Part shown: in pieces, positions 4,567 to 50,521 of the stretch | Layout of the letters: every line of letters starts with the position of its first letter | Position numbering within the stretch: position 1 is the stretch's first letter | DNA from: a virus | Virus record (IMG/VR): IMGVR_UViG_3300020187_002839 | Span: 1 to 50,521 of that record | Length of the DNA stretch: 50,521 bases | Reading direction: 5' to 3' (one strand) | Notes under the pieces: model-generated | What the model saw: only the letters and a program-made list of their open reading frames with translations | The model's database searches: none | Told to the model about the DNA's origin: nothing | Program-made: the position numbers and the translations under genes

Positions 4567-4570
4567 AATT

Positions 4571-6471: not shown

Positions 6472-7671
6472 TTACCATCCTTTTTTAATTAAATCAACAA
6501 TATATTCTCTTGATTCTTGATCAACCCAATAACCTACGGGGATGCATAACATAGTTTTTACAGCCTCATCTACACCTGGTAAATGTGATTTAAATTGTTG
6601 TGTACAAGTATGTAAATCATTTCTTTCATGTACTCTAGAAGATTTAACACCATTTTCACCTAAATACCTCATTAAATCATCTCTTCGTTCAGCATGTAAT
6701 GAATATAACCAATATGCTGGGTCTGCACAATCAAATTCATTAATTAAAGTAATACCATCAACCCCTTTAAGGTTTTCTTTATAAAATTGACCATTTGACT
6801 TATTAGAATTAACTATATAATCAGCATGTTCTAAATTACTTCTACCTATAGCTGCACTTATATCATTCATATGATACTTATAACCTGCTTCTTCAACATC
6901 AGCTTCACACCTAAAATCAGCTCTATTACCTGCATCTCTATCTATACCATACCATCTTAAAGTATTAAATGATTTAGTTGAACTAGCATAAGGGCTAGAG
7001 ATAAATCCTCCATCACCTGAGGTTATATGTTTTATAGCTTGTAAACTAAAAGTACCAAAATTGCCTGTAAAGCCAATTTTTTTATCTTTCCATGTTGATC
7101 CAAATGAATGAGCACAATCTTCTATTATTATAACTTTTCTACCATATTTTTCTGTAGCTGTATCAGCTATTTCTTTTAATCTATCTAAGTCAATAGGATT
7201 TCCACCCCAATGTACTACAGTAATTATACGAGTATGTTCATTAATTTTATTTTCTAAATCATCTAATGACATATTTAATGTCTTAGGATCAGTATCAACC
7301 CATTTAAGATTTAATCCAGAATTAATAATAGGCCAATTTGTAGCTGTACAAGTTAAAGCCGTGGTTAATACTTCATCTGTTGGTTTTAATGCATCCCATT
7401 TACAAGAGGTAAAAGCAATTCCTTGGTAAAGATTTTCCAGTAGGGTTCTATCTTTTTTGAAGTAATGATATAATAAATGTTCTGCTGATGTTGCTGAATT
7501 TACAGTTGATATATTATAAGCTTCATCCGCTTCAAAAAATCTTCTTAACTCAGATTCAAATTTTTTAACTTGGGGTCCTTCTCCTATAAAACCACTATTA
7601 ATAACTTCACCTGCCCTTTTAGCTGCATCCTTAGACATAAATACTTTAAATAATGGAATTTCTTTTTTCAT
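6472..7671 (-). CDS. DegT/DnrJ/EryC1/StrS family PLP-dependent sugar aminotransferase
   Basis: Full length at 399 aa. The fold-type I motifs are visible: IPLFKVFMSKDAAK at the start, the cofactor Asp in IIEDCAHSFGS (Asp185), and the Schiff-base lysine Lys214 in FSLQAIKHITSGDGG. Members convert a keto-sugar nucleotide to an amino sugar, here as a precursor for the sugar cluster. The C-terminus (SRVHERNDLHT, LCIPVGYW) is also typical. It abuts both neighbours directly. The substrate is unknown. Confidence 0.9.
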   Translation of the reverse strand: MKKEIPLFKVFMSKDAAKRAGEVINSGFIGEGPQVKKFESELRRFFEADEAYNISTVNSATSAEHLLYHYFKKDRTLLENLYQGIAFTSCKWDALKPTDEVLTTALTCTATNWPIINSGLNLKWVDTDPKTLNMSLDDLENKINEHTRIITVVHWGGNPIDLDRLKEIADTATEKYGRKVIIIEDCAHSFGSTWKDKKIGFTGNFGTFSLQAIKHITSGDGGFISSPYASSTKSFNTLRWYGIDRDAGNRADFRCEADVEEAGYKYHMNDISAAIGRSNLEHADYIVNSNKSNGQFYKENLKGVDGITLINEFDCADPAYWLYSLHAERRDDLMRYLGENGVKSSRVHERNDLHTCTQQFKSHLPGVDEAVKTMLCIPVGYWVDQESREYIVDLIKKGW

Positions 7672-8295
7672 TTACAACGTGTTATAATAATTATTTTGTT
7701 CTTCTTGTTTTTTTATTGTCTTAGGATGATATAAAGCTAATTCAGGCATACCAGGTAATAAAGCATATGTTTCAAAACCTTCTAATACTTCATGTACTTT
7801 ATTTTTCCATTTAATTTCAGGTTTATTTTTCCAAATTCTCCACTGATAATCAGGCCAATTAACTCTATCTTGAGAGTCAACATTCCACCTCCATTTTTCA
7901 ATATGTTCAGTAGTTAAACCTGAAACGGTATTAACCCTAGGTACTAAATAAACTTCATTATCTGGGTTTCCTTCAAGTATTTGAGGTAATTTTTCAATTA
8001 ATATTTCATGAGGTAATTCATCAGCATCAATTTGAAATATATAATCACCAGTACATAACTCAGTTAATTGATTTTTCCAATCTGCAAAATGATGTTTGAA
8101 AGTTTTTGCATGATAACTACAACAATCATCACCTTTTAATTCACTAACACGTTGCCATACTTCAGGTGTACCTTTTTTCTTGTCAAATAAAACAACTATT
8201 TCATCTTCTTTACGTTTAGCTTTTATAAGAAAATTTAATAATCTAGTTATTTCTTCTAACTCATTACAAACTGTTATTGCATAACTTATCTTCAT
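7672..8295 (-). CDS. Glycosyltransferase family 2
   Basis: A 207-aa compact GT2 protein: ISYAITVCNELEEITRLLNFL at the start, IVVLFDKKKGTPEV in the nucleotide-binding region, and YIFQIDADELP, in which DAD is the metal-binding motif at about residues 113-115. The length fits single-domain GT2 enzymes of the LPS core type. A promoter of the phage family lies 20 nt upstream of its start, inside the end of the preceding gene, so expression can begin here as well as by read-through. Confidence 0.82.
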   Translation of the reverse strand: MKISYAITVCNELEEITRLLNFLIKAKRKEDEIVVLFDKKKGTPEVWQRVSELKGDDCCSYHAKTFKHHFADWKNQLTELCTGDYIFQIDADELPHEILIEKLPQILEGNPDNEVYLVPRVNTVSGLTTEHIEKWRWNVDSQDRVNWPDYQWRIWKNKPEIKWKNKVHEVLEGFETYALLPGMPELALYHPKTIKKQEEQNNYYNTL

Positions 8296-8297
8296 AT

Positions 8298-8741
8298 CTA
8301 TTCTGGTAGTATTCCAATATACGAAAGAGCATCTATATAATCACGTTCTTTAAAGTATTGAATTGTGGACATATCTGCTCTATGTGATTGACCTTTATAT
8401 TTTTCTCTATCTTCTTCAGGTATTTCAACTGCTTTGACAGCTCCCCAAGCCCAATTATCTTTATCTGGTCCTGAAGCAAATAACATTCCTTGTTCTGGTA
8501 AGTTAATTGTGTTAGGGAGCCAAATAAGATCAGTTTTTGGGTCTTTCCAAGCTAAATCTTTATAAATTTCAGGTAAAAATTCTATTTGTTCATTATAAAA
8601 TTCACTTCCTTCTTTCATAAGAGTATTAGTCCAAAAACCACAAGACAAACTCATATAATTAGTTATTTCTTTATTTATTTCTATTCTGTAACATAGATCA
8701 CCACCTGATTTAGGGCAATCTACTATTTCATCGTATTTCAT
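8298..8741 (-). CDS. Hypothetical protein in sugar cluster (147 aa)
   Basis: No family is recognised. The N-terminus has CPKSGGDLCYR, and the rest is rich in aromatic residues with an acidic, proline-containing middle (residues 48-90). There is no membrane segment or signal. It sits between two transferase genes with 1-2 nt gaps, so it is part of the carbohydrate operon. Its 3' end contains the promoter for the downstream GT2 gene. Confidence 0.6.
   Translation of the reverse strand: MKYDEIVDCPKSGGDLCYRIEINKEITNYMSLSCGFWTNTLMKEGSEFYNEQIEFLPEIYKDLAWKDPKTDLIWLPNTINLPEQGMLFASGPDKDNWAWGAVKAVEIPEEDREKYKGQSHRADMSTIQYFKERDYIDALSYIGILPE
8316..8345 (-). promoter_or_regulatory. Phage family promoter upstream of GT2 gene
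   Basis: The downstream box reads TTCGTATATT on the minus strand, 20 nt before the ATG at 8295. The -33 box is weak (CGTGATTATA), keeping only part of the consensus. It lies inside the 3' end of the 147-aa gene, so part of the match may be coding coincidence. Confidence 0.45.
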
Positions 8742-8742
8742 A

Positions 8743-10047
8743 TTATTTTAATTTTGGTAATTGTACATCAGTATTAAATTTAATGTCAGTAGGCATTGAT
8801 AAATCCATTTTTTTAGCAAACTTTGGTAAATTTGAATCTAAAATATTACCTACTAATTCTTTCATATGGTCAAAACTAAAATTAGTTTTAACGTAATGGC
8901 CTTGTTGTTTAGCTTTACCTACTAATGATTTATATTTTTCATATACATTTTTAAATACTCTACTTATTTGCGTTACATCAGGTGCAAACCATGATGTTTG
9001 AGGTAATAACCATTTATTAGCAGCACTTTGGTGTACTGGCTCTAATTTTCCAGGAATTAAAATAGTATAATCTGGGTTTAGAAAATCTAATTGTCCTGAC
9101 CAACCTGAAGCTATAATAGGTTTTTTAGATAATCCAAATTCTAATAACGGTCTACCAAATCCTTCCCCTTTATTAAAACTAACCATTGCTTTTACTTTAG
9201 GATGATTATATAATTCATTCATTTCAGAATTACTAAAATCTCCATTTAATAAATAAACATTTGGTAATGTTCTAGCTCCTTTAACTTGATTTCGTATACC
9301 TTTTATTTTTTCTAAAATACTATCTCTACTCATATAATTTTCTACACCTTCAGATGTTTTTAAAATTAAAGCAGGTGGACTTTTTTTATTTTTAAATGTT
9401 TCAAAAAATATTTTAATAGTTTGACCTATATTTTTTCTATCATGACCTAAATCACCTTGCATCCACATACCAACAAATAAATAACAAAATTGTTCTTTAA
9501 TTTTACTTAAATCTAATTTTACTTCACTAGAAGGTAAATGTTTATAAACATCTAAATCTGCACCTTCAAATACAACGTGTATAGGTTTAGTTGATTTAAT
9601 TTTCCCTACTACTTTATTAGTTTGTTTATCTCTCTTATCAAATGTAACATCTTGAAATACCTTTTGGCTATGTTTAGATGAAACCCAATTCATGTTCATT
9701 CTATTTAAACCTTCAACCCATGAACCATCACAACCTGTACTTTCAATACCAGCTGTACATCCAATATTATATGTTCCTACTGGTTGGAATTCACTTGGAA
9801 TTGTAATTTGCATCCATATGTCAGCTTTTTCACCTTTAGGTATATTAGGTACCGATAATGCTTGTAAAAACTTAAATTTAGGATGTTCATCACAAAACCC
9901 TAAAGTACAGTCTCCCCACCTTTGGCTTAATAACTTAACATCATATTTGTCTAGTTCTATAATTGCTTTAATGATATCTCTAGCTCTTGCTCCATAACCA
10001 CTGTAAGTGTCAAATGGTGAACTTATATAAAAACTTGGTTTATTCAT
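8743..10047 (-). CDS. Glycosyltransferase, GT-B (GT4/group 1-like)
   Basis: A 434-aa GT-B protein. The N-terminal domain has PFDTYSGYGARARDIIKAI, the glycine-rich donor loop of group 1 enzymes. The C-terminal domain has GMWMQGDLGHDRKN and then KAMVSFNKGEGFGRPLLEFGLSKKPIIASGWSG. That segment contains the E-x7-E-type nucleotide-sugar motif (EGFGRPLLE) of GT4. It overlaps the preceding glycosyltransferase by one nucleotide (stop/start). The donor and acceptor are unknown. Confidence 0.85.
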   Translation of the reverse strand: MNKPSFYISSPFDTYSGYGARARDIIKAIIELDKYDVKLLSQRWGDCTLGFCDEHPKFKFLQALSVPNIPKGEKADIWMQITIPSEFQPVGTYNIGCTAGIESTGCDGSWVEGLNRMNMNWVSSKHSQKVFQDVTFDKRDKQTNKVVGKIKSTKPIHVVFEGADLDVYKHLPSSEVKLDLSKIKEQFCYLFVGMWMQGDLGHDRKNIGQTIKIFFETFKNKKSPPALILKTSEGVENYMSRDSILEKIKGIRNQVKGARTLPNVYLLNGDFSNSEMNELYNHPKVKAMVSFNKGEGFGRPLLEFGLSKKPIIASGWSGQLDFLNPDYTILIPGKLEPVHQSAANKWLLPQTSWFAPDVTQISRVFKNVYEKYKSLVGKAKQQGHYVKTNFSFDHMKELVGNILDSNLPKFAKKMDLSMPTDIKFNTDVQLPKLK

Positions 10048-11495
10048 TAGTATAATAATTTATGGTTTAAAAATTTACCTTTATATTCATTAGTGTTAAT
10101 AATTTGATGTTCAGTTTTTGGTTTCCATGTTGAAAATAATTCTTCCATAGAATCCATAAACCTTTCAGCTTGATGTTTATGTGTAAACCCAGCTTCATCA
10201 CTGATTGCCCATTTTCTTCCTTTATAACCCCTTTCTTTTCTCTCTTTAGGGTCCATGTTATAAATTTCTAATATTCTTTCAGTTGCATCTTCCCATTTAC
10301 ATCTATCATCAAAAATATAAGGTGTTGGAGGAGATCCTTGCATTGATCTACTTGTTGGATATACTGGAAATGCCCATTCACCATGTTCTTTATATGTACC
10401 TCTATGATTAGAAGGCACATCAGCACTTGGTGTAAACCATTCCCCTTTATCATCAACAAATCTCATTTGATCTTGCATACCACCTGTTGTATTAGCTATA
10501 ATTGGAGTACCTGATAGTATAGCTTCAGTAAGTGTTAATCCCCAACCTTCATTTGATGTTAATAATATTTGAGCGTCAGCTATATTATATAAATAATTTA
10601 ATTCATGTGGTGGTAATTTAGCAGTTGAAAATACAATACACTCTTTATATTTTTCATCAAATAATAGTTCTGAAACTTTAACTAAATTAGTACCATGATC
10701 TGATGAAGGTTCAGTATGTAAAATAAATCTACATTTTTTAGCCTTTTCTAATGGTAAAGAATCTAAAAATCCTCTAAAAGCTAGTAAACTATCTGGTATT
10801 TGTTTTCTTCTTATGTTTCTTGAGTTAAAGAATAATGTAAACTCAACACCAGCATTACCTTGTACTTTATTTTTAAATTCTAGGTATTTATCATAATCCT
10901 TATCTAATTCTGTTATAGGTCTAAATATATCTGAATTTAAACCATGAGGGACATAATTACAAATTCTATCTTCAATATCATCACCTAATACTGTTTTATT
11001 AATAAAAACAGTTTGTTTAGATATACCCATTAATAAATCACATGATTGATAAAATGGTTTATTATATAATGGAGCTGGTAAATCATCCCAAATATTTAAA
11101 TAAGTAATTGGTATTTTTCTCCTAATTTCTCTTTCCATTTTAAATATGTGATGGAAATATCTTGGATCTGTAATAAGTAATACTGCATCAGGTTTTTCTC
11201 TTAAGAATATTTGTCTAAAAATATTTCCATCACCATAACCATCTACAGGATATAGCATAACAGAAGCATCATCTATTCCTGCAAGTTTACCTACATCAGC
11301 ACTCATATCTAATGCTTTACCTTTATCTGGATGTTTAATGGAACCCGCAATTTGGCACCAATTATAACGATGAGCTGTATGTATTACAATTTCTTTACCT
11401 ACTGTTGCTACACCAGAATGTACTCTAATATCATCTGTGATTAATAATATTTTCTTCCTTTTGTCTTTAGGAAGATATTCAAAACTTTTATTCAT
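10047..11495 (-). CDS. Glycosyltransferase, GT-B (GT4/group 1-like)
   Basis: A 482-aa protein. It begins KKILLITDDIRVHSGVATVGKEIV, the N-terminal donor loop. The C-terminal domain contains ILLTSNEGWGLTLTEAILSGTPIIANTTGG, an EGWGLTLTE form of the group 1 E-x7-E motif, followed by the conserved GTP(I/V)(I/V)A segment. It is a cytoplasmic enzyme, first of the contiguous run of carbohydrate genes, 13 nt after the RHH gene. Its layout resembles the 434-aa gene that follows, so the two may act in sequence. Confidence 0.87.
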   Translation of the reverse strand: MNKSFEYLPKDKRKKILLITDDIRVHSGVATVGKEIVIHTAHRYNWCQIAGSIKHPDKGKALDMSADVGKLAGIDDASVMLYPVDGYGDGNIFRQIFLREKPDAVLLITDPRYFHHIFKMEREIRRKIPITYLNIWDDLPAPLYNKPFYQSCDLLMGISKQTVFINKTVLGDDIEDRICNYVPHGLNSDIFRPITELDKDYDKYLEFKNKVQGNAGVEFTLFFNSRNIRRKQIPDSLLAFRGFLDSLPLEKAKKCRFILHTEPSSDHGTNLVKVSELLFDEKYKECIVFSTAKLPPHELNYLYNIADAQILLTSNEGWGLTLTEAILSGTPIIANTTGGMQDQMRFVDDKGEWFTPSADVPSNHRGTYKEHGEWAFPVYPTSRSMQGSPPTPYIFDDRCKWEDATERILEIYNMDPKERKERGYKGRKWAISDEAGFTHKHQAERFMDSMEELFSTWKPKTEHQIINTNEYKGKFLNHKLLY

Positions 11496-16397: not shown

Positions 16398-18035
16398 TTA
16401 AAATCCTGGATTTACTGGAGGAACTCCATTTCCATGTCCATTTTGTTCAAATTCATCTGAATCTTTATCGTCAGTTATAGTACATTCTGTTAGTAAAATT
16501 GTACCTGCTACTGAAGCTGCATTTTGTAATGCTGATCTAGTTACTTTAGTTGGATCTATAATACCTGCTTCTTTAAGGTTAATAACTTTACCTGAGTTAA
16601 TATCAACACCTGCCCATTCATCATCTCCTGAGTCTACTAACTTATATTTCCCTAGTAGTTGGGCTTCAGTTTTATCATAACCAGCATTAATTAAAATTTG
16701 TTCAAACGGTTTACCACAAGCATTATAAACTATTTCAGCACCAACATTATTAACATTAATACTTTCTCTAGCATATAATAAAGCAGCTCCTCCTCCTGGT
16801 ACAATGCCTTCTTCAATAGCCGCTTTAGTTGCATGTAATGAATCGTCAATTCTATCTTTCTTTTCTTGCATTTCAGTTTCTGTAAATCCACCAACATGAA
16901 TTATAGCTACACCACCTGTAAATTTAGACAATCTATTTTGTAATTGCTCTACTTCATATGGAGTATTTGCTTTATCTATCTGAACTTGTAATTCATCGAT
17001 TCTTTTTTCAATAGCTTCAACTTCTCCTTTACCATCAACAATTGTAGTTTGTTCTTTTTCAACAGTTACTACTCTTGCTTCTCCAAACCATTCCCAACTA
17101 AATTTATCAAGTTTCATACCTTTTTCCTTACTAAATACTTGACCTCCTGTTGTAATAGCTATATCTTCTAATACTAATTTTCTTTTATCTCCAAATTCTG
17201 GGGATTTGACAGCACATACAGCTAAAGTACCTCTCATTTTATTTACAATTAAAGTAGCTAATGCTTCATTATCAACATCATCAGCGATAATTAATAAGGA
17301 TTTTCCTTGACTACCTACTGCTTCTAAAATTGGTAATAATTCTTTTACTGAATTTAATTTCCCATCTATCATTAATATAGCTGGGTTTTCAAGTACTGAT
17401 GTCATTGTATTATTATCAGTAACAAAATAAGGGGATTTATATCCTCTATCAAATTGCATTCCTTCAACAGTTTCAATATAAGTATCTCCTGTTTTTGATG
17501 ATTCAATATGTACAACACCTTTTAACCCAACTTTATCAATTGCAGTTGAGATTAATTTTCCTACTTCAACATCATTGTTAGCTGATACTGTAGCAATTTG
17601 TTCTAATTGATCTTCGTTTGAAATATCTTCTGATATATTATCTTTTAAAGTGTGTAGTACTTCTTTAATAGCTTTATCAATATCCCTTTTTATTTGCACT
17701 GCATTATCTCCTTGGTCAAGACTTTTTAACCCATCTTTTACCATTGCTCTAGCTAGTAAAGTTGATGTTGTTGTACCATCACCTGCTTTATCAGCTGTTT
17801 TAATTGCAGCCCATTTTACTAATTGTACTCCTAATTCTTGATTAGGTTCTTTTAATACAATGTTTTTTGCAACTGTAACTCCATCTTTAGTACTTTGTGG
17901 AGCATCAAGAATACCTCTTCCAATTACAACATTTCTACCATTAGGTCCTAAAGTTGATACTACTGCATCTGCTAGAATATCAATACCTTTTACTAAGTTT
18001 GCCCTTGCGTCTGAGCCAAATTCTACTTTTTTCAT
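16398..18035 (-). CDS. groL: GroEL-type chaperonin (Hsp60)
   Basis: A 545-aa group I chaperonin of full length. ATP-site residues are intact: KDGVTV with Asp51, AGDGTTT (residues 84-90), and Asp398 in RIDDSLHATKAAIEEG followed by PGGGAAL. The equatorial, intermediate and apical domains are all present. The C-terminal tail is acidic and ends NGVPPVNPGF, lacking the GGM repeats of bacterial GroEL. It follows groS by one nucleotide. The phage therefore carries its own complete folding chamber, probably for capsid or tail proteins. Sequence divergence from bacterial GroEL, such as the unusual GRGILDAPQ loop, suggests a long phage history. Confidence 0.97.
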   Translation of the reverse strand: MKKVEFGSDARANLVKGIDILADAVVSTLGPNGRNVVIGRGILDAPQSTKDGVTVAKNIVLKEPNQELGVQLVKWAAIKTADKAGDGTTTSTLLARAMVKDGLKSLDQGDNAVQIKRDIDKAIKEVLHTLKDNISEDISNEDQLEQIATVSANNDVEVGKLISTAIDKVGLKGVVHIESSKTGDTYIETVEGMQFDRGYKSPYFVTDNNTMTSVLENPAILMIDGKLNSVKELLPILEAVGSQGKSLLIIADDVDNEALATLIVNKMRGTLAVCAVKSPEFGDKRKLVLEDIAITTGGQVFSKEKGMKLDKFSWEWFGEARVVTVEKEQTTIVDGKGEVEAIEKRIDELQVQIDKANTPYEVEQLQNRLSKFTGGVAIIHVGGFTETEMQEKKDRIDDSLHATKAAIEEGIVPGGGAALLYARESINVNNVGAEIVYNACGKPFEQILINAGYDKTEAQLLGKYKLVDSGDDEWAGVDINSGKVINLKEAGIIDPTKVTRSALQNAASVAGTILLTECTITDDKDSDEFEQNGHGNGVPPVNPGF

Positions 18036-35445: not shown

Positions 35446-36018
35446 TTAATCTAATAAATATCCGTAAGGTGTTGATGTTACATCTTGCCCTATTGGAAAG
35501 TTTTCTAATCTCATTGATAATGTCATAGTTCTATTAATATAAGGGTTATAAAATTCACCCTCAGCAGTTAAACAAATTAATAAAGGGTCATAAAAATCCT
35601 CTTCAGAGGGTTCAATGATTTCTCCTACTATTACTTCGTTCCAAACTATATATTCATCGTTGCCAGGTATTTCTACTCCAGCATACTTGTTATTGGGATT
35701 TTCCCAAGTGTAAGTACCTACATCTAATAATAAACCATTATCTACTGCGTCTGAATCTAATAAGTACATTGCAAAGTGTTGTCTATCTGCTCTTGGTTCT
35801 CCATCATCTATTTGAAGATATAGGATAAATATTTTTCTTAGTTTACCATCAACCCATTGTGTTCCACCATATGAATTTACCAAAGAGTATCTTTCGTATG
35901 GGTCAAATGAATCACCATCTAATGCAATTTCAAATAATAGTTGTCTTTCTTCTACTACATCATCTTTAGAACAACTAAAGAAAAGTATAAGCGTTAAAAA
36001 TAATATTAATTTTTTCAT
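35446..36018 (-). CDS. Probable surface lipoprotein with Bacteroidota export signal (190 aa)
   Basis: A type II signal peptide ends at Cys16 (MKKLILFLTLILFFSC), followed by SKDD. A Cys-x-Lys-(Asp/Glu)2 after the lipid-anchored Cys is the lipoprotein export signal described for Capnocytophaga and related Bacteroidota, which sends lipoproteins to the cell surface. The mature part is beta-rich, acidic and of unknown family. It lies directly after the outer-membrane barrel gene (2 nt) and may work with it. Confidence 0.78.
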   Translation of the reverse strand: MKKLILFLTLILFFSCSKDDVVEERQLLFEIALDGDSFDPYERYSLVNSYGGTQWVDGKLRKIFILYLQIDDGEPRADRQHFAMYLLDSDAVDNGLLLDVGTYTWENPNNKYAGVEIPGNDEYIVWNEVIVGEIIEPSEEDFYDPLLICLTAEGEFYNPYINRTMTLSMRLENFPIGQDVTSTPYGYLLD

Positions 36019-36020
36019 TT

Positions 36021-37265
36021 TTATTTAAATGTATAATTTAATCCAAATGTGGATTGGAATAATTTACTATCCCACATTTTGCTATATTCTCCTTCTATAA
36101 ATACTCCTAAATTTTTATTAAGTTTCCAACCCATATTAATACCAGCTGAATAGTCATCCCATTGTTTATCTGCTAATAAATTATTATGTCCTCCTTTACC
36201 CCAACTTTCTCTTTGTAGGTAAGAAAAATCTACATTTCCTGAAATATATGAATGATATGGAAGAATATAATTTCCGTATGCGTGTAACCAAAAATTATTT
36301 TTATAATGGTAATAATCAAAACCTACAATAGGAGCAATTTCAGCAAAATCATCTAATTCATTCCATCTTTCTTGATTATATCTATTCATTAAATCAGTAA
36401 ATACATTTTCTCTAAAATCAATGTCAGAATATGCTACTATTTCTCCAGCTTCATTCTTCCAAATCCAATCTTGACTTTCAGCTCCAGTATTAACATCTGT
36501 ATAAGTTGTAAAGTGATCTGTATAACCATATTCAAATCCTAAAGTGTACCAAGGATTTGCTGGGTATTCAAATTCTTCTCCAGTGTCAGGGTTTGTGTAT
36601 GATGTAGTTTCGTTTAACCATATTTCTATTGGGTTGTATCCATATGCTCTTTCATGTGTTCTATAAATAGCACCTGCTGATATTGAGAATTTTTTACCAA
36701 TAGGTAACCTAGCTCTAACTTCACCTGAGACATATTCTAAATTAATTTTATCAACTTCTCTAGATTCTGCTTTTACTATATGGTATTTACCTGTGTGTTT
36801 AATAAATAACCTGTGATTTTGAAAATCTTCACCTCTCCATCTTTCATTTTCAAAGTGGATTTGATATTCTAGCCCTTTAAAGGCTGATGTTGGGGCTGAA
36901 AATGCTAATTGTTCTTCAGTACCATCATAAAAGTTTTTAGGTTTTCTTTCGTAGTTAAATCTTGCTAGTTTTCTAATACCAATCCCTATTCTATAATCAA
37001 AGGGATATTCAGGTGTATTATCTACAACTACAGGGATATCATATAGACCATCTCCATCTCCTGTTCTAACAAAGTATGTATTTTCTTTTGCTTCAATAGA
37101 ATTTGAGATATCACCTGCTCCATATACGGTTCCATACTTTAAAAAGTCATCATAAAGGCCTTTAAAAAAGTTCCCTTCTTTTTTAAGGGGAGATTTTAAG
37201 ATTTCTTGACTTTGTAAATCCGGGGTGAATAAAATAAACGCAACAATTAATATTATTATTCTCAT
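36021..37265 (-). CDS. Probable outer-membrane beta-barrel protein (414 aa)
   Basis: A cleavable signal peptide (MRIIILIVAFILFTPDLQSQ) is followed by a mature protein of alternating amphipathic, aromatic-rich strands (for example KFSISAGAIYRTHERAYGY, WYTLGFEYGY, FWLHAYGNYILPYHSY, LGVFIEGEYSKMW). It ends FQSTFGLNYTFK, near the C-terminal aromatic signature of barrel proteins. No plug or TonB box is seen. A phage-encoded outer-membrane protein could block or replace a host receptor, or change permeability. It heads the exported-protein unit. Confidence 0.75.
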   Translation of the reverse strand: MRIIILIVAFILFTPDLQSQEILKSPLKKEGNFFKGLYDDFLKYGTVYGAGDISNSIEAKENTYFVRTGDGDGLYDIPVVVDNTPEYPFDYRIGIGIRKLARFNYERKPKNFYDGTEEQLAFSAPTSAFKGLEYQIHFENERWRGEDFQNHRLFIKHTGKYHIVKAESREVDKINLEYVSGEVRARLPIGKKFSISAGAIYRTHERAYGYNPIEIWLNETTSYTNPDTGEEFEYPANPWYTLGFEYGYTDHFTTYTDVNTGAESQDWIWKNEAGEIVAYSDIDFRENVFTDLMNRYNQERWNELDDFAEIAPIVGFDYYHYKNNFWLHAYGNYILPYHSYISGNVDFSYLQRESWGKGGHNNLLADKQWDDYSAGINMGWKLNKNLGVFIEGEYSKMWDSKLFQSTFGLNYTFK

Positions 37266-37320: not shown

Positions 37321-39036
37321 CTAACCATCACAAGAAAGACAATCTGCCATACGACTCCCTAAATCTCCTTTAATTACTGAATCTGTTCTTAAATAGTATA
37401 GCGTTTTAACGCCTAATTTCCACGCTTCCATATGGACTTGGTTAATCCATTTGGGAGAATCGTTAGGATCAAAAGAAAGATTAAGTGATTGTGTTTGATC
37501 TATATATTTTTGACGTTCTGCTGCTTGTTTTATTAATTCTAATTGATTTGTTTCAGAAAATGTTAAAAATACATCTTTTTCTTCTGTAGATAGCACATTA
37601 TCTGGTAAATTTAATACAGATCCACCTTCTTGTAACATCTGATCCCACCATTTATTTTTATTTTCACCTTTAGATTTAAGTAATGCTTCTAATACTTTAT
37701 TTTTTCTAATAAAAGTACCTTTAGCTCCATTAAATGTATAAACATTTGCAGGTAAAGGTTCAATTCCCGCACTAATACCACCACAAATAACAGAATTTGA
37801 TACTGTTGGTGCAACTGCTAATAAATGTGTATTTCTCATACCAGTTCCTCTACACCATAATGGTTCTCCATATTCTGCCGCTAAATCCATAGATGCAGCT
37901 TCAGATTCACTTCTAATTTTATTAAAAATATTTCTAGTATGTACAGTAGATGCTACTGAATTAAATGGTAGATTTTTCTGTTGTAAAAAAGTATGCCACC
38001 CCATTACACCTAAACCTAATGCTCTACCCTTAGATGCATGTTTATGTGTTCTTTTTAAACTTTCTTTACCATTTGATTTATCAATAAATTCTTGCATTAC
38101 TCCATCTAAAAACCAAATTGCTGTTTTAATACAATCTGTATCTTTATATTCTTCCCATTTAGCTAAGTTAAGAGAGGATAAACAACAAATAAAACTGTGT
38201 TCTTCATCTGTAAATAATGTAATTTCAGAACAAATATTAGTCATAGTAACGTCTAAATTATTCATTCTGTAGGCAATAGGATTGTTTTTATTAACATTAT
38301 CCTTATACATTATATAAGGTTCACCTGTTTCCATTCTTGATTTTAAAACTGTAGCCCATTTATTCATTGATTCAGCATCCCTAGCTTCTAATTTTCTCAT
38401 AAATGAATCACCTACAACAACACATTGGTGTAAATTTAAACACTGTCTATTTGGATCGCCCTTCGGTCTACGAATTTGTAAAAATTCCTCAATATCCCCA
38501 TGTTCAATATCTAAATTAACTGATGCTGCACCTCTTCTAACATTACCTTGATTAGTAGCAATAATTGATGAATCATATATTTTTGCCCATGGAACTACAC
38601 CTTCACTTTTACCATTTCCTGCAATTCCTTCACCCCGTTGTCTAATACGAGATAACGAAATACCTACACCTCCACCGGATGCTGTTAATTTCATTAGTTC
38701 CGCGTTAGTTAAACCAATTCCACGTATTGAATCAGGTGTATCTATACCAAAACATGAAATTGGTAATCCTCTATCAGTACCCATATTTGATATAACTGGA
38801 GATGCTAATCCTATCCAACCATTCCAAATATATTTGAAAAATTTGTTAGCTAATTCTGGTTTTTTAAGTCTATTAGCTGATGCACTTGCTACTCTTTTAT
38901 AAGCTGTTCTTACAGTTTCACCAGGTAATAAATAACCTTTAGAAATTGTTGCTAAAGAGATTTCATCCATCCACTCAGGATACTGTTTTCCAGCTTCCCA
39001 TTGACTATAATCTACTTGTAATGCGTTGTTTTCCAT
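37321..39036 (-). CDS. nrdA: Class I ribonucleotide reductase alpha subunit
   Basis: The 571-aa protein has the catalytic core: PISCFGID (active-site Cys), the NICSEI motif with Asn, Cys and Glu, ALGLGVMGWHTFLQQ, and the redox tail ending MADCLSCDG. It lacks the N-terminal ATP-cone of the roughly 760-aa E. coli enzyme, so overall activity control by dATP is probably absent. It makes dNTP precursors for phage replication. It is separated from nrdB by the secreted glycosidase-like gene. Confidence 0.95.
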   Translation of the reverse strand: MENNALQVDYSQWEAGKQYPEWMDEISLATISKGYLLPGETVRTAYKRVASASANRLKKPELANKFFKYIWNGWIGLASPVISNMGTDRGLPISCFGIDTPDSIRGIGLTNAELMKLTASGGGVGISLSRIRQRGEGIAGNGKSEGVVPWAKIYDSSIIATNQGNVRRGAASVNLDIEHGDIEEFLQIRRPKGDPNRQCLNLHQCVVVGDSFMRKLEARDAESMNKWATVLKSRMETGEPYIMYKDNVNKNNPIAYRMNNLDVTMTNICSEITLFTDEEHSFICCLSSLNLAKWEEYKDTDCIKTAIWFLDGVMQEFIDKSNGKESLKRTHKHASKGRALGLGVMGWHTFLQQKNLPFNSVASTVHTRNIFNKIRSESEAASMDLAAEYGEPLWCRGTGMRNTHLLAVAPTVSNSVICGGISAGIEPLPANVYTFNGAKGTFIRKNKVLEALLKSKGENKNKWWDQMLQEGGSVLNLPDNVLSTEEKDVFLTFSETNQLELIKQAAERQKYIDQTQSLNLSFDPNDSPKWINQVHMEAWKLGVKTLYYLRTDSVIKGDLGSRMADCLSCDG

Positions 39037-39037
39037 A

Positions 39038-39856
39038 TTATTCTACTTCACTTTCTGCTGTTACTCTTACATTTGAAATAGTATATTCTGCTCCATCTTT
39101 ACATAAATCAGACCAACCACTACAATTAGGGTCACTATAATCATATAAATTATCAGGATTAGGTGAAAATCCTTGCCATAATGAAGCAACAACTTTATAT
39201 CCTTTTTCCATGTCTTCTTTTAAACCATCTAAGCTTGTTAATTTACTTCCTGGACCTGCTTCATTGTTTACAAAATCATATACTACTATACTATTATTAC
39301 CTTGAACATAAGTAGTTGTCATATTAGTATAATCAGAATTAAATTTAGTTACAACATCAAATGGTAATGAAGGATCTATTTTACTTGCATCTACAATACC
39401 AGTACCAGTTGTTCCAGTAAAGCAAGAAGTATCTCCTCCTAAAAATGCCCATTGATAGTTTTGAGTTTTATTTATGTGTATTGTTGCCTGAGTAGCTACA
39501 TTTCCATTAGTTTCTAAAAAATCTATTTCATCACAACAGTTTGTACAACCATCACCAGAATCACAATATTCCGTTTCATTCATAACTAAGTAAAAAGTTC
39601 CATTAATAAACTTTTGACCTGCTAATTTTGAAATATCTACTGTTGCTGAAATTGAAGAAATATTTTTATACCCTTGAGCAGAACGAACTCTACCAGGATT
39701 AAAAAATACCTTATCTTCTCCAATTATAGGGGCACCTTGATCACATCCTTGATTTGCGTCAAGATTAAAAGTTGGGGTAAATACCTCATTGGTTGATTTT
39801 TCATTGTTACATCCTAATAATAATAGGGCTAAAATTAATAATTTAATTGTTTTCAT
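39038..39856 (-). CDS. Secreted lipoprotein with GH7/clan GH-B-like glycoside hydrolase features
   Basis: The 272-aa protein has a lipobox ending at Cys16 (ILALLLLGC). The mature part has a concanavalin-like pattern. CCDEIDFLETNGN has Glu110, Asp112 and Glu115 in the E-x-D-x-x-E catalytic spacing of GH7 (and some GH16), preceded by YCDSGDGC and followed by TIH (His127). Further on, PFDVVTKF, TTYVQGN, VVASLWQGF (GH7 has a similar MSLWDD) and ISNVRV (like FSDIRVG) follow in GH7 order. It would hydrolyse a beta-glucan or related chain at the envelope. It sits between nrdB and nrdA. Fold is inferred by eye; substrate is unknown. Confidence 0.65.
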   Translation of the reverse strand: MKTIKLLILALLLLGCNNEKSTNEVFTPTFNLDANQGCDQGAPIIGEDKVFFNPGRVRSAQGYKNISSISATVDISKLAGQKFINGTFYLVMNETEYCDSGDGCTNCCDEIDFLETNGNVATQATIHINKTQNYQWAFLGGDTSCFTGTTGTGIVDASKIDPSLPFDVVTKFNSDYTNMTTTYVQGNNSIVVYDFVNNEAGPGSKLTSLDGLKEDMEKGYKVVASLWQGFSPNPDNLYDYSDPNCSGWSDLCKDGAEYTISNVRVTAESEVE

Positions 39857-39874: not shown

Positions 39875-40861
39875 TTAAAATAATGATCCAGCATCCCAAT
39901 TTTGGACACCTTTACTATAATTTGTTACTCTATTTGCAAAGAAATCTGTATGTTGTTTTCCTCCTGAAAGGTTATCAAACCAACTCATTCTTTGTACTGC
40001 TTCTTTATCTATACCATTTACTATTGCTTCATATCCTAAATCACTCATTTTAGTGTTTACTCTATGTTTAATAAAAGATATTAAATCATATTTAGGACAA
40101 CCTGGTAAGTCTCCCATTTCATATACTTTATCTATAAAATCTAATTCTAGCTTTAAAGATAAATGTGCTGCTTCTTCTATATCTGCCCTTAATTCAGGTG
40201 TATCAAACTCTGGGTGTTCTTGCATTAATGTTCTAAATAACCAACATCCAGCATTTGAATGTAATGATTCATCTCTAATACTCCATTCTACTATTTGGCC
40301 TACACCTTTAAGTTTATTATCTAATTTAAATGATAATAAAACAGCAAATGAAGAAAATAAATTAACTCCTTCGGTAAACGCAGAAAAAATTGCTAGTGAT
40401 TTTGCTCTTTCATGCCAATTTGCTTCACCATTATGTGAATCTCTAACTTGTGTTAAAGTTTCAATTTTAGCCATTGTTGTTTCATCTTCTAAAAATTCAG
40501 CAAAATCATCTAAACCTAATTCTTCATTTAATAAAGAATAAGCTTCAGCATGAATTGTTTCAAAGGCTGCAAATGTAACAGCCATTTTAATTACTTCAGG
40601 TTTTCTAAACCATTTTGTAACTAATGTTGACCAATAATCATTTACTACAGTTTCAGTTTGGGCAAACCCTTTTAAAATAGAACCAATAATATTTTTTTCG
40701 GTTTTAGTTAAAATTTGTTTCCAATCATTAACATCACTCATCATTGGTACTTCTGTATGTAGCCAATGTGCTTGTTGTTGTTTCATCCAATAATCATGTG
40801 CTTCTGGATATTCAAAGGGTTTATAAACGATACGTTCTTGCAATAATGATGTTTTTGCCAT
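39875..40861 (-). CDS. nrdB: Class I ribonucleotide reductase beta subunit
   Basis: The 328-aa ferritin-like protein has the metal-binding motifs FAAFETIHAEAYSLL (Glu, His, and the radical Tyr in AYS), FTEGVNLFSSF (Glu) and IRDESLHSNAG (Glu, His). The first carboxylate position appears as Glu in FAQTETVV, where many class Ia enzymes have Asp. It generates the radical used by NrdA. The C-terminus (NWDAGSLF) fits the family tail that docks to alpha. Confidence 0.94.
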   Translation of the reverse strand: MAKTSLLQERIVYKPFEYPEAHDYWMKQQQAHWLHTEVPMMSDVNDWKQILTKTEKNIIGSILKGFAQTETVVNDYWSTLVTKWFRKPEVIKMAVTFAAFETIHAEAYSLLNEELGLDDFAEFLEDETTMAKIETLTQVRDSHNGEANWHERAKSLAIFSAFTEGVNLFSSFAVLLSFKLDNKLKGVGQIVEWSIRDESLHSNAGCWLFRTLMQEHPEFDTPELRADIEEAAHLSLKLELDFIDKVYEMGDLPGCPKYDLISFIKHRVNTKMSDLGYEAIVNGIDKEAVQRMSWFDNLSGGKQHTDFFANRVTNYSKGVQNWDAGSLF

Positions 40862-40878
40862 TGTTTTTAATTATTATG

Positions 40879-42264
40879 TTATTTTGAAATTGTGAAAAAA
40901 TTAGGGTCGTAAGCTTTTTTTAATGCTGCTTTATCATACTTGTCTACATCTGTATCAAACTTATTTGTTTTAACAGTTGGTGTAAAGTTTTCTTCTTCCT
41001 CTAAATCTGTATTGTAATTATGTACTTCAAAATGACCTGTAGCTGTGTCAGCTTTAACTGCAAATGTAAGACCATCTATACCATACCTATTTTTCATAAT
41101 ATGAAATCTACCTGTGTTTTTTACTTTATCTTCTTTTTTTCTTGATAAAGACATTGCAAAATCAGATATCATTAACTTGTCATAAGAACCTGCTGCTTTA
41201 TCTCCTTCTATAATGTCATCGTTAGCACCAGCCCTATTTACTTGAGAAACTGACCAAATAGGTATGTCTAATTCCCGTGCTAATCCTTTCGTACTTGTAT
41301 AAATATCATCAATTTCGTCCTTACGCTCCCTACTTTTACGTCTTGATGAAAGAAGATCAACATAATCAATAATTACTAAATCTGCTTTGATCCCCATACC
41401 TTCTACTTTTTTAATATGTGACTCAATTGTGGACATAGTTGCGCGCCCTGTTGGGTATTCTTTAATTATTAATTGACCTGGTAATTGAGGTATTACATCT
41501 TCAGCTAATGCTCTTAATTTAATGGTTTCATTAACAGGAGTTTTAGTAAAGAAAGCATCATATCTTTTTCCAACATAAGCTTCTCCTAATTCTAAAGTAT
41601 AATGAAGGACATTATAACCTGCTCTTACAGCATAACCACCTAAAGCAACTAATGACCACGATTTACCACCTCCTGGACTACCAAATATAAGACCAAAATC
41701 TCCGTTTCCCAGTCCACCTTGTAAAATGTCATTAATCTTAGGCCAAGGTGTTTCAATAGTTGTTCTTGTATCTTCTCTGTACCTTTCTTCAATATCCTTA
41801 ATATATTCATGTCCTACGTTTTTATCTTGACCTGCTTTTAAAGCACCCTCAACTAAATACCTAATACCTTCAAAATCCCCAGCTTTTAACATATCAACTG
41901 AGGACATTAAGGCCTTCTTCAATTGTTGGTTTCTACAAAAATTAGTAAATTCTTCTTGGACATACTTTAAATCATCGTCAGAACTAACATATGCTGTTTT
42001 TAATTGTTCTTTAATTGCAATTTGTAATACTTCATTATCTACTTTTTGTAATTCAACCTTTAATACTTCTAATGTAGGTACATGGTGATACTTATCGTAA
42101 TAATTTAATATCTCTTTTATAGCCCATCTATGTGCACTATTTTCAAAATATTCTTCACTAATAATATCGTGTATATTAGTTAAAAAATCTTTATGGGTAA
42201 GAAGTGATGATATGACTTTTATTTGGAAATCATGCCCATATTGATTTAATGTATGTAATGTCAT
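40879..42264 (-). CDS. gp41: Replicative DNA helicase, DnaB-like (T4 gp41-like)
   Basis: The 461-aa protein has an N-terminal helical domain and a RecA-type core: Walker A GSPGGGKS (residues 195-202), Walker B LVIIDYVDLL, and IWSVSQVNRAG with the conserved Gln and Asn. It is a 5'-3' hexameric helicase that unwinds the fork. It lies between the 5'-nuclease and nrdB genes. A linked primase (gp61) was not seen in the window. Confidence 0.93.
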   Translation of the reverse strand: MTLHTLNQYGHDFQIKVISSLLTHKDFLTNIHDIISEEYFENSAHRWAIKEILNYYDKYHHVPTLEVLKVELQKVDNEVLQIAIKEQLKTAYVSSDDDLKYVQEEFTNFCRNQQLKKALMSSVDMLKAGDFEGIRYLVEGALKAGQDKNVGHEYIKDIEERYREDTRTTIETPWPKINDILQGGLGNGDFGLIFGSPGGGKSWSLVALGGYAVRAGYNVLHYTLELGEAYVGKRYDAFFTKTPVNETIKLRALAEDVIPQLPGQLIIKEYPTGRATMSTIESHIKKVEGMGIKADLVIIDYVDLLSSRRKSRERKDEIDDIYTSTKGLARELDIPIWSVSQVNRAGANDDIIEGDKAAGSYDKLMISDFAMSLSRKKEDKVKNTGRFHIMKNRYGIDGLTFAVKADTATGHFEVHNYNTDLEEEENFTPTVKTNKFDTDVDKYDKAALKKAYDPNFFTISK

Positions 42265-42278
42265 AACCTTTTACTATT

Positions 42279-43319
42279 TTATTGTTTATAAATTGGAAAT
42301 TGAGTGAAAATATCATTTAACCAAACATCAACATTTCTAATCATTCCTCCTAATTTATCTTCATTATACAACTGTATAAATAATTCAGCATTAAATTCAG
42401 GTAAATCTTCAGTAATTAAATTATCAATGTGTTCTTTACCTCTATCATCTATCATTGGAACACTTAAATCCATAACTTTATAATTAGTTTCAATTCTACT
42501 TTGATCCTGAACTATGCGTGAATATACAACATGCTCTTTAAATTTCCTAGTAGAAATTTCAAAAATATCATCTAATGTTAATTCTTTAGTTTTTAATTCA
42601 GGGAATTTTTTAAATATTCCCTTAGCTCCTAATCCCTTAAAACCTTGAATATTATCTGAATTATCACCTAATAATGTTTTATGTAGAATAAAATTTGATG
42701 GTAATAAACCAAATTTTTCTTCAACTACCTTTGGAGTATAATATTCTTTTTCCATTGGTCTATATACAATAATTTTATCAGTTACTAATTGTAAAAAATC
42801 TTTATCACTAGATACTATAAAACAAGTTGAATCATGTTTTTCTACTAATTTTTTAGATAACACGGCTATAATGTCATCAGCTTCAACCTTATCGAGTATA
42901 GTGGTTTTAACAGGTAATAGCTTTAAATATTGAATTATACGTACTATTTGGTCGATTTTTGAATCATGTTCTTCTTCAATATTATCAAATGCTTCCCAAT
43001 TTGTAATTCGTTGTAAATTTCTTTGAGATTTGTATTCGGAGAGCAAGTTCTTACGGTTTACCGTTGAACCTGCTCCGTCGAATACTACATAAACAGATGT
43101 AGGTTGTGTTTGTCTAATCATTGCACCTAAAGAGCGAAAGAATCCACCCAACCCACCAATGTGGACTCCATCAGGATTTACCATATTCATCATCGCAAAG
43201 TTTCTAAAAAATAGATTTAAACCATCTAAAATTAATACTTTATCATGTCTATTCGGAGTAGTTTCCTCCCCTTGCTCTTGGACTTCATCCAAAAGTTTAA
43301 ATAACTCTTTATGTTTCAT
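42279..43319 (-). CDS. rnh: 5'-3' exonuclease / RNase H (FEN family, T4 Rnh-like)
   Basis: The 346-aa protein has VLILDGLNLFFRNF (Asp32 first metal ligand), VYVVFDGAGSTVNR, KVEADDIIAVLSKK, FIVSSDKDFLQLV and GDNSDNIQGFKGLGAKGI (helix-hairpin-helix). This is the full acidic constellation of the FEN family. It would remove RNA primers from Okazaki fragments. The coding region around 43020-43160 has higher GC than most of the genome. It is 8 nt after uvsX. Confidence 0.9.
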   Translation of the reverse strand: MKHKELFKLLDEVQEQGEETTPNRHDKVLILDGLNLFFRNFAMMNMVNPDGVHIGGLGGFFRSLGAMIRQTQPTSVYVVFDGAGSTVNRKNLLSEYKSQRNLQRITNWEAFDNIEEEHDSKIDQIVRIIQYLKLLPVKTTILDKVEADDIIAVLSKKLVEKHDSTCFIVSSDKDFLQLVTDKIIVYRPMEKEYYTPKVVEEKFGLLPSNFILHKTLLGDNSDNIQGFKGLGAKGIFKKFPELKTKELTLDDIFEISTRKFKEHVVYSRIVQDQSRIETNYKVMDLSVPMIDDRGKEHIDNLITEDLPEFNAELFIQLYNEDKLGGMIRNVDVWLNDIFTQFPIYKQ

Positions 43320-43327
43320 GTTTTAGT

Positions 43328-44401
43328 TTATAAGTCCTGTGAGTCAAAAAGCACAGGTGTTACATCTTGTTCGTCCTCTACAATCTTAAATGTTCCTCCT
43401 CCTAAGATTTTAGACCATTCATCAGCATGCTCTTTTTTATAAGCATTTTTATCTTTGTCTGTATCTTGTATAAAACCATGGTTTGTCATAACAATTTTAC
43501 CTCTTGATTGCATACCATTAACGTGGTTTTTATCAATTTGTAAATTTGTTCTTTTACCCCATTCTACTTGCATACCACCTTTAATTGCTTTAATTTTAGA
43601 TGTTCCAGCATTTGATATGTTTCCAAATGTAACTACAAATGTAGCATCATACCACATTGCCATTCCACCTTTGTTCATCATTTTTGGCTGACCCATAGGG
43701 GATTCAGCTTTTGCTGTCCAAACTTTATTAACTGCAATTAATGTATTAGTATATGGTGATGATTCTTTACGAGACATTACAATACTCTGATTAACTGTAT
43801 TACCAAACTGTGTTGACATTGCTCCTGCATTCCATTCATTGTTGTTTTTCAGTTTTTCAACTGACATTGCACAAGGAATAGAACCAATAGAATCCCAGAA
43901 AAATGTTAGATCATAAGGTAAATTACCTTTTTTCTGTTCATTCTGTAAATCCATTATAAATGCTGCTACGTCTTCAATAGTATGTAAAGTTTCTCTATCG
44001 ACATAAATAAAGTTTCCTTCATAATCAATAACATTACCTTCATCATCCTTAATAAGTTTAACTTTTAAACCCATTTGAGCTGCATGTTCCCAATTCCACT
44101 TCATCTCAGTAATAATAAATACAGGAAGTTGTCCCATATTTTGTGCTGAAACTGCTGCTTCTAATAGTGCTGTAGTTTTACCTGTGTCAGAATGTCCTCT
44201 AAGTAATGAAATATGTCCCATTGGTATACCAGGTACTCCTGCTATTGCTTGAAAAGCAGGTGATAATGGTATCCACTGTTGTTCCTTAAATTTAACGTTT
44301 TTATCTAAACCTTTAGATGATTTAAACTTATTAAGGTCAAATTTACTCTTAATCTCGGCAGACACTGCTGCCGAGAGAGACTTTGATGCTTTTTTTGCCA
44401 T
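43328..44401 (-). CDS. uvsX: RecA-like recombinase (T4 UvsX-like)
   Basis: The 357-aa protein carries Walker A GHSDTGKTT (residues 69-77), DLTFFWDSIGSIPC as Walker B, and an L2-like region (MNKGGMAMWYDATFVVTF). This is the pattern of UvsX proteins from marine T4-like phages. It forms filaments on gp32-coated ssDNA and drives recombination-dependent replication. It lies 2 nt after gp32, and 8 nt before the nuclease. Confidence 0.9.
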   Translation of the reverse strand: MAKKASKSLSAAVSAEIKSKFDLNKFKSSKGLDKNVKFKEQQWIPLSPAFQAIAGVPGIPMGHISLLRGHSDTGKTTALLEAAVSAQNMGQLPVFIITEMKWNWEHAAQMGLKVKLIKDDEGNVIDYEGNFIYVDRETLHTIEDVAAFIMDLQNEQKKGNLPYDLTFFWDSIGSIPCAMSVEKLKNNNEWNAGAMSTQFGNTVNQSIVMSRKESSPYTNTLIAVNKVWTAKAESPMGQPKMMNKGGMAMWYDATFVVTFGNISNAGTSKIKAIKGGMQVEWGKRTNLQIDKNHVNGMQSRGKIVMTNHGFIQDTDKDKNAYKKEHADEWSKILGGGTFKIVEDEQDVTPVLFDSQDL

Positions 44402-47897: not shown

Positions 47898-50521
47898 TTA
47901 ACTTAATTGGGATATTACATCTCCTTTTGCTTCTTGCTCAGCAGCATTAATTGCATCTCTTGTTCTTTGGCTTTGTCTACTATTAACTACAGGGATAGTT
48001 ATAGTTCCTGTTCCCGCTGCTATTTTACCTTGTCCATCATTATAATTAATAAAAACTGTTACTGTTTGTCCAGGTCGAGGGTTTTGAGGGTCTTTAGTTA
48101 CTGTAGCAAACTGTTGTTGATAATTAAATGAAGAAGTTGTTGAAGATTCTGTTAATTTTGTTCCTTTAGTTTCCCATGATGCTACATTCTTACCTGCATT
48201 ATCTGCTTGTGCATTTTTATATGCTGTGTCTATATTAAATCGTGTATAAAAGTGAATTGAATCTACATAATTGGCAAAATCTCCACCCCATTCAAATCCT
48301 ACAGATTTTGCTAAATCAACAATACCAGATGTTCGCCATATGTCTCTTTCTGCTTTTTTAAACATTCTACCATTAGGATCTTGAATATTCATATCTATAG
48401 CACCATAATAATTATGTTTAGACCTACCTGGGGCTGCATTTGCTCCTTGACTTTGTAATTGTGCTGATTTAGCAAATGTTCTTCCAATTGCATTTACATA
48501 AGCAGTATAACCAGGATATTTTTCATTTAAAGCATTAAATAATTTTCTATATTCAGATTGAAGGTTATCATTTACTTGTGATACTATATAATCAATAGAA
48601 ACATTTCCACCACTTCCTCCTCTTCTATTATCTACAATTTTAAATGCTTGATCTGAAGGGATAGCCCCTGTAACTTCATATTTTTGAAATGTCCCTTCAT
48701 TAATGTAATCCTTTTTTATAGCTTCACCTAAAGGAAATGTTTCAACAGGAGATGTAGCTAAAGTATTAAGTTGTGTTTCCCAGGTATTATCAGATATTTT
48801 ATGGTTTACTTTTGTTATTACAAATTTAAGGGCTTTATCATATTGTTTTGGTAAAAAATCTTGTCTAATCGGTAAGCTATTATAAATAAGCATACCAGCC
48901 ATTCCATCTAAAGTTAAAGATAAATCTACAGGAATAAAACCAATTTTACCTGAAGGTTTTGAGTATAATCTCATTAATCTATTTGTTTCAGTTTTCATAT
49001 AAGCTTTAAATGCTGCTTTACCTTGGCTTATAAATTCATCTTCTATTTTTGTATACAAAGCTTGAAGCTTTGAATATCTTTTAATAGAACTATTAGTAGC
49101 TTTTAATTTTCTTTCTAATGCAACTACTCCCCCAAATGCTCTAACTAAATATAATTCATAATTAGAACTATATAAAGCCTCAAAATCATCTTGTGAAAAT
49201 TTTGCATTTGCTTCTGCTTCAGCAGCTGCTTTTTGTAGGTTTTTTCCTTTTTCAAACCATTCTTCTTTTTCTAAATTCCTATATGTTTCACCTAAATAGT
49301 TTACATCTTTAGCTTTTCCATCTTCTACTAATTCTGCTGCTGCTGCTGCGGTTGCATATGCAAGTCTTTTTGTAACATTTGCTTCATAAGCTTCACTTAC
49401 TTCTCTTGATACATAACTAGCAGCTTTTTTTACTGTTTTCCATGGGGATGATATAGCTCCCCAAGCTGCTGATCCCCAACTTTGACCCTTATTTCTAAAT
49501 TTTGGAGGGGTAAATGTGTTTTCAGCATCAAATTCTAATGCTGCTGCAGCAGCTACTGCTGCTACATTTAATGCTTCTCGTGCATCACTAATATCTTCAG
49601 AATTTTCCCAAGCTTCCTGTAATTTTTCAAAATCTGTTTTATCATTTGATCCCCTTGCATCTGTTATTTGGGCTGCAAATCTATCTATTAATCCTTGATT
49701 CCATTTAGAAAATGCAGTTCCATCTTCATTATTAGTTTTACTAGTTCCTCCTGTAGCTCCAATTGATATTTGAGTAGCATACTTAGGTGTAATTTTAGAA
49801 TTAAATTTAATGTCAGTTACAAAATTAGATGTGTTGTTATTTACATCATACCCAAATACTTCTAATGGTATAGAATTATCATATGGAATTAATCCTGGAA
49901 TTGGATTTTGGTCTATAATAGTAACTATGTAATCATCCTTTAAAACTGGTTCTAAATTACAAACATTTCCTAAAGCACTATTAATATCACTACATAATGT
50001 TTCTAAAAACTTAAATAATTGTACTTTACCTTCACCATCTTTTTTACTTAATAATTTAGCTATATGTTCATAATTTACATAAATATTCATTATTCTCCCA
50101 AATAATATATCTCCATTTTGTGTTATACATTCTTTTAAAGGTTCTAAATATTGAGGTGTATTTATAGTAGTTTCTGAATCTGATGTTGCAAAAAACATAG
50201 GTTTTATTAAACAAACTTTAGGATCTAAAGATATCACATTTGGAAAAACACTAAAACAGTTATAATCTGCAGAATCAAATTCTAAACATTTTCTACTTTT
50301 TCCTGATTGTGAATTAATAGTCTGTATTGAATTTTGTTGTATGTAGGTCATTAATTGACCTAAAGTCATAAAATAATTATATTTTGATTTATCAACTTTT
50401 TTATAGTTATTATATCCACTTCCTCCTAATGCAGCTCTTGCTCCTTCTAATGAATAAAAATTTCTTTGTTCATCTGTTTCATTTAAATTAAAATTTTTAT
50501 CTCTAACATCAGCATATAATT
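47898..50521 (-). CDS. Baseplate hub-like protein with M15 (VanY-type) peptidase domain, 5' end beyond window
   Basis: The first ATG in the window is at 50369 (823 aa), but the frame stays open to base 50521, so the true start lies outside. From that ATG, residues 480-545 (VDLSLTLDGMAGMLIYNSLP, then KFVITKVNHKISDNTW) match tail hub proteins. Residues 620-715 form an M15 D,D- or L,D-peptidase: SKHNYYGAIDM (His652, Asp659) and DSIHFY (His706), the SxHxxGxAxD...H zinc site. Residues 240-440 are an alanine-rich helical insert. It probably digests peptidoglycan peptides at entry. Confidence 0.78.
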   Translation of the reverse strand, partial: LYADVRDKNFNLNETDEQRNFYSLEGARAALGGSGYNNYKKVDKSKYNYFMTLGQLMTYIQQNSIQTINSQSGKSRKCLEFDSADYNCFSVFPNVISLDPKVCLIKPMFFATSDSETTINTPQYLEPLKECITQNGDILFGRIMNIYVNYEHIAKLLSKKDGEGKVQLFKFLETLCSDINSALGNVCNLEPVLKDDYIVTIIDQNPIPGLIPYDNSIPLEVFGYDVNNNTSNFVTDIKFNSKITPKYATQISIGATGGTSKTNNEDGTAFSKWNQGLIDRFAAQITDARGSNDKTDFEKLQEAWENSEDISDAREALNVAAVAAAAALEFDAENTFTPPKFRNKGQSWGSAAWGAISSPWKTVKKAASYVSREVSEAYEANVTKRLAYATAAAAAELVEDGKAKDVNYLGETYRNLEKEEWFEKGKNLQKAAAEAEANAKFSQDDFEALYSSNYELYLVRAFGGVVALERKLKATNSSIKRYSKLQALYTKIEDEFISQGKAAFKAYMKTETNRLMRLYSKPSGKIGFIPVDLSLTLDGMAGMLIYNSLPIRQDFLPKQYDKALKFVITKVNHKISDNTWETQLNTLATSPVETFPLGEAIKKDYINEGTFQKYEVTGAIPSDQAFKIVDNRRGGSGGNVSIDYIVSQVNDNLQSEYRKLFNALNEKYPGYTAYVNAIGRTFAKSAQLQSQGANAAPGRSKHNYYGAIDMNIQDPNGRMFKKAERDIWRTSGIVDLAKSVGFEWGGDFANYVDSIHFYTRFNIDTAYKNAQADNAGKNVASWETKGTKLTESSTTSSFNYQQQFATVTKDPQNPRPGQTVTVFINYNDGQGKIAAGTGTITIPVVNSRQSQRTRDAINAAEQEAKGDVISQLS

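Follow-up and report, generated by a model that had tools for sequence, protein, structure and literature searches.

What kind of protein is encoded between the two ribonucleotide reductase (RNR) genes of the IMG/VR virus record IMGVR_UViG_3300020187_002839, and why does its gene lie there? The window, by which we mean the whole 50,521-nt stretch of that record, carries between nrdB and nrdA a gene for a predicted lipoprotein with landmarks of glycoside hydrolase family 7 (GH7) cellulases. GH7 cellulases have mostly been described from eukaryotes, fungi among them. We propose that the phage protein is probably an active retaining endo-beta-glycanase, related to GH7 within clan GH-B, that is exported to the host envelope and trims beta-linked polysaccharide of the host. 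The enzyme class is well supported; the substrate and the benefit (superinfection exclusion, progeny release) are what we infer. Together with its relatives, the protein suggests a previously undescribed, apparently phage-borne family of GH7-related enzymes that cut sugar polymers.

Kinship of the phage lipoprotein with GH7 enzymes

The first-pass annotation had read a series of GH7 landmarks from the open reading frame at 39038-39856 (272 aa), and every residue and motif that it named was found where it had placed them:

39038..39856, minus strand: gene for the GH7-related phage lipoprotein, 272 aa (open reading frame, profile match to 8pof, AlphaFold2 model)
39809..39856, minus strand: Sec/lipoprotein signal peptide MKTIKLLILALLLLG with lipobox LLGC, Cys16 predicted to be lipidated, Asn at +2 (sequence; hydrophobicity and lipobox scan)
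39512..39529, minus strand: catalytic motif E110-I-D112-F-L-E115, the proposed nucleophile, helper Asp and acid/base (GH7 alignment and invariance)
39476..39478, minus strand: His127, invariant; its counterpart in 8pof is the His that follows the catalytic strand (alignments)
39176..39178, minus strand: Trp227 in VVASLWQ, at least 90% conserved, aligned with the SLW Trp of GH7 (alignments), the -2 subsite Trp by the literature

Further motifs are C107-C108, YCDSGDGC (97), FDVVTKF (166), YVQGN (183), VVASLWQ (222), and ISNVRV (260). LLGC16 fits a looser form of the lipobox [LVI][ASTVI][GAS]C, and hydropathy reaches 2.76 over 12 residues; from its sequence, the protein is predicted to be a lipidated bacterial lipoprotein.

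A single-sequence phmmer search against all PDB sequences returned 8pof as the sole significant match (E=1.8e-5), an entry titled "putative glycosyl hydrolase family 7". Each widening of the phage family improved the E-value of 8pof, to 1.7e-9, 3.8e-11, and 2.2e-13, the last with a 30-sequence profile whose next match, 4xeb, is another GH7 and was insignificant. The matching 8pof segment in turn found 39 other PDB sequences, every one named a GH7-type glucanase or cellulase, the best being Humicola endoglucanase I (2a39; 8.4e-30), where the motif Glu is E197. Judged by these matches, 8pof itself is a genuine GH7. Its record name resembles those of termite-gut protist sequences, a resemblance that we did not use as evidence.

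When the phage family was aligned by hhalign with two GH7 sequences (8pof and Humicola endoglucanase I), the probability was 96.7% (E 3.5e-10), and the alignment superposed the E/D/E motif, the subsequent His, and the SLW Trp. The phage motif lies against CNELDIWE in 8pof and CNEMDIWE (E197) in the Humicola enzyme, and the second Glu is separated from the His by 12 residues in the phage protein versus 11 in 8pof. The same E-x-D-x-x-E spacing is found in GH7 cellobiohydrolases, as in the triad Glu209, Asp211, and Glu214 of PfCel7A; the same paper covers subsite tryptophans (PMC5864845). The relatedness to solved GH7 enzymes, with the triad at the homologous position, is true homology as profile comparison reads it.

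The likeness to Cel7 enzymes (Humicola endoglucanase I, T. reesei Cel7A, 8pof) comprises sequence homology over ~180 residues, the E-x-D-x-x-E motif and subsequent His, the YCD and YVQ motifs, the SLW Trp, and the same predicted fold. However, the phage protein is at most ~30% identical to them, predicted to be lipid-anchored, phage-encoded, and below detection by PF00840, and it seems to lack the second substrate Trp and the tunnel loops. Because its ~256 mature residues, against ~400-430 in the known enzymes, leave no space for cellobiohydrolase tunnel loops, an open, endo-acting cleft would be expected.

An AlphaFold2 model built from a 13-sequence alignment is all-beta (predicted local distance difference test [pLDDT] 89.4, predicted template modeling score [pTM] 0.89), and its strand at mature residues 94-101 holds E94, D96, and E99, equivalent to full-length 110, 112, and 115. 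The first-pass annotation had made its case hang on a beta-jelly-roll, and the model has this clan GH-B fold, with moderate template modeling (TM) scores. In a Foldseek comparison with 350,542 PDB chains, the top 12 were all GH7 (E 1e-10 to 4e-8), followed by GH16 enzymes such as VvEG16.

We found at least 88 relatives in four scans of IMG/VR and worked with 80 distinct loci plus the window (81 sequences from uncultured viruses; 32 clusters at 90% identity, 13 at 70%); the relatives' loci carry L-numbers below. ExDxxE is present in all 81 sequences, and in a 30-row alignment of diverse members E110, D112, E115, H127, and six cysteines are invariant, in a family whose members are down to 35-40% identical. 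This pattern points to purifying selection on the active site. Most clusters keep a signal peptide or a lipobox-like start, and wherever a lipobox was scored, Asp was never at +2. Some members are extended: by ~170 N-terminal residues with no Pfam match (L032:5467-6000, L033-L035, L059-L063) or by a different, C-terminal extension (L001:6775-7239).

Outside these viral records, no relative was found among 50,697 records of cultured phages, in the plasmids searched, or in bacterial genomes, the last covered by two scans with short exact patterns whose limited sensitivity is no proof of absence. A phage GH7 was not reported in the open-access literature searched, and the viral "GH7" papers that we opened held only GH73/GH74-type strings.

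Several observations weigh against an active, exported, GH7-related enzyme. First, Pfam PF00840 detected no member up to E=10 (the protein, 21 relatives, and 19 virus records), so that none scored above its cut-off; a Pfam scan of the window protein returned no family, and the sole PHROGs match, with a family of unknown function, was short and weak (E 0.0057). Because PF00840 fails across the family, we do not claim formal GH7 membership and write "GH7-related" (clan GH-B). The first-pass claim of a GH7-like enzyme is thus partly supported: the kinship holds, by profiles for homology and by structure comparison for the GH-B fold, and calling it GH7 went one step too far. Second, by query length the TM-scores are no more than modest (0.50-0.61), and those of GH16 enzymes are similar. 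Third, L008/L009, L012/L014, and L137/L138 have no recognizable export signal, with the catalytic motif intact.

The TM-scores raise the question of whether the protein is a GH16-type enzyme (laminarinase/lichenase-like, EIDxxE) that merely resembles GH7. VvEG16, lichenases, and laminarinases have the clan GH-B fold and the ExDxxE catalytic strand in common with it, and VvEG16 and other GH16 enzymes come close behind GH7 in Foldseek. Because GH7 and GH16 are alike in TM-score, the fold supports clan GH-B only, and it is the sequence that decides for GH7. Whole-PDB profile searches, which include many GH16 structures, matched GH7 only, with no GH16 chain at E<=10; Pfam GH16 gave no match either, and the YCDAG...C-C-E-D-E and YVQ landmarks are of GH7 type. 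A GH16 identity is therefore quite improbable.

A further alternative is a GH-B domain that is catalytically idle, or lectin-like, and serves to bind a glycan, as it might in masking a receptor. Many phage GH-B or jelly-roll folds serve binding or structure, BFVD gave weak matches to phage tail proteins, and some members are fused to, or adjoin, other small exported domains. We nevertheless think this unlikely, since a binding-only domain would not need E110, D112, E115, and H127 to be invariant despite 35-40% identity.

For the glycanase that we favor, the following course may be envisaged. The gene would probably be expressed with the replication and RNR genes, in the replication phase. Sec would export the protein, a lipid on Cys16 would anchor it in the host envelope, and its six conserved cysteines would pair in disulfides. 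Glu110 as nucleophile, Asp112 as helper, and Glu115 as acid/base would make a retaining, double-displacement cut in beta-linked, glucan-type chains. The first-pass annotation had suggested processing of capsule or exopolysaccharide. The most likely target would be beta-linked polysaccharide of the infected host itself, at its surface or in its periplasm, and trimming this polymer would block further phage attachment and/or keep progeny from being trapped at lysis.

Linkage to ribonucleotide reductase genes

The first-pass placement of the gene between nrdB and nrdA is borne out by the Pfam matches of its flanks:

39875..40861, minus strand: nrdB, RNR small subunit, upstream neighbor (PF00268, 2.8e-61)
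37321..39036, minus strand: nrdA, RNR large subunit, downstream neighbor (PF02867, 1.5e-98)
40879..44401, minus strand: genes for replication, farther upstream in this strand block (DnaB helicase, 5'-3' exonuclease, and RecA-like; Pfam)

Gaps of 18 nt to nrdB and 1 nt to nrdA separate the three minus-strand genes. Among known nrdB genes, the one from Flavobacterium phage vB_FspM_immuto comes closest; because the two NrdB proteins are 72% identical, the host of the window virus is probably a flavobacterium. Immuto has the same order, SSB-recA-exo-dnaB-nrdB-nrdA, but its nrdB adjoins nrdA; neither immuto nor Xanthomonas phage X1, both cultured relatives, has such a gene between nrdB and nrdA.

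The linkage recurs across the family, with nrdA and/or nrdB within ~2 kb of the GH7-like gene (GH) at 53 of the 81 loci. The order is nrdB-GH-nrdA in the window, L001, and L002; nrdB-nrdA-GH in L004, L005, and L020-L023; nrdA-GH-nrdB at 27 loci, many with a 4-nt overlap between the GH stop and the nrdB start; and nrdA-nrdB-GH at 17. Two RNR types, from phage lineages that differ widely, are involved: one with a 571-aa NrdA, in a Flavobacterium-phage-like group, and one, in T4-like phages, with a 771-aa NrdA that bears an ATP cone. The NrdB of these T4-like phages most resembles those of Xanthomonas/Stenotrophomonas phages. On the family tree, unlinked clades separate linked ones (3-4 state changes). 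Of 18 unlinked records tested, which may be fragments, not one had a small subunit of class I, and only that of L003 had a large-subunit match, a weak one.

Does this position reflect a functional tie to RNR, or is the gene a passenger of a mobile insertion hot spot near nrd? The latter concerns the position and not the enzyme function. In T4 relatives, the homing endonuclease mobE is known to occupy the gap between nrdA and nrdB (PMC2988022), and a passenger explanation is possible because of this. The freestanding mobE of T4 shares that intergenic niche with the GH7-like gene (PMC2988022), but it is an unrelated protein, a cytoplasmic HNH nuclease. A passenger would also fit the four gene orders and the interruption of nrdA in L038 and L044, where 1.4-2 kb of inserted DNA, perhaps an intein or a homing element, splits the gene (L038:2448-4495, L044:448-1822). 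Yet no endonuclease was recognized beside the GH7-like gene, and the linkage holds steady within clades and extends over both RNR types. In addition, a partner family, CGAS, serves as a control: without the GH7-like gene, it had an nrd neighbor at 0 of 69 loci (3-kb flanks). We give the passenger explanation serious weight, at somewhat short of even chances.

Glycoside hydrolases of phages are frequently interpreted as auxiliary metabolic genes, and the linkage to nucleotide synthesis would suit one whose glucan breakdown feeds host metabolism during infection. However, no transporter or sugar-catabolic gene was recognized beside the GH7-like gene, and an anchored enzyme would suit surface remodeling better; we hold a metabolic role to be very unlikely.

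Partner proteins, other genes of the window, and significance

CGAS is a conserved exported family ("AFCGASxAxPTG", ~200 aa) with no significant Pfam match. It adjoins the GH7-like protein in L006:6934-7542, L019:5220-5915, and L034:4724-5443 and is fused with it in L004:4024-4671 and L021:6736-7410; of at least 288 copies in IMG/VR, most occur without a GH7-like protein. Its structure model (pLDDT 57) is too poor for use, and a PDB profile search gave chance-level matches only. L003:2575-5979, directly before the GH7-like gene, encodes a phage protein of 1134 aa with a sorting domain for type IX secretion (Por_Secre_tail, 1.7e-11). Other relatives' loci encode outer-membrane proteins: a Gram-negative porin (L038:11001-11909) and a TonB-plug/carboxypeptidase-regulatory protein (L034:9189-11633).

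Just after nrdA, the window encodes a 414-aa protein that bears a signal and matches no family (36021-37265) and a lipoprotein starting CSKDD (35446-36018); both are kept in L001. Elsewhere, the window encodes a GroEL-like chaperonin (16398-18035; PHROG 5725, 2.6e-146) and an 823-aa protein with an M15 peptidase domain (47898-50369). A cluster of a nucleotide-sugar epimerase, an aminotransferase, and two glycosyltransferases (2053-11495) suggests glycan modification by the phage.

A broader proposal, tentative and rather doubtful at present, is that this virus-borne branch of the GH7 lineage is an RNR-linked, envelope-anchored glycanase module with which large phages that are unrelated to one another, infecting Bacteroidota and Proteobacteria, strip host beta-glucans. 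On this view, the branch may stand closer than any enzyme now known to a compact ancestor of the eukaryotic GH7 cellulases. In industry, GH7 cellulases are of central importance. A compact, divergent relative in large phages would extend the range of GH7 to bacterial viruses, provide a minimal GH7-type scaffold, and raise the testable question of why phages without common kinship retain an exported glycanase by their ribonucleotide reductase genes.
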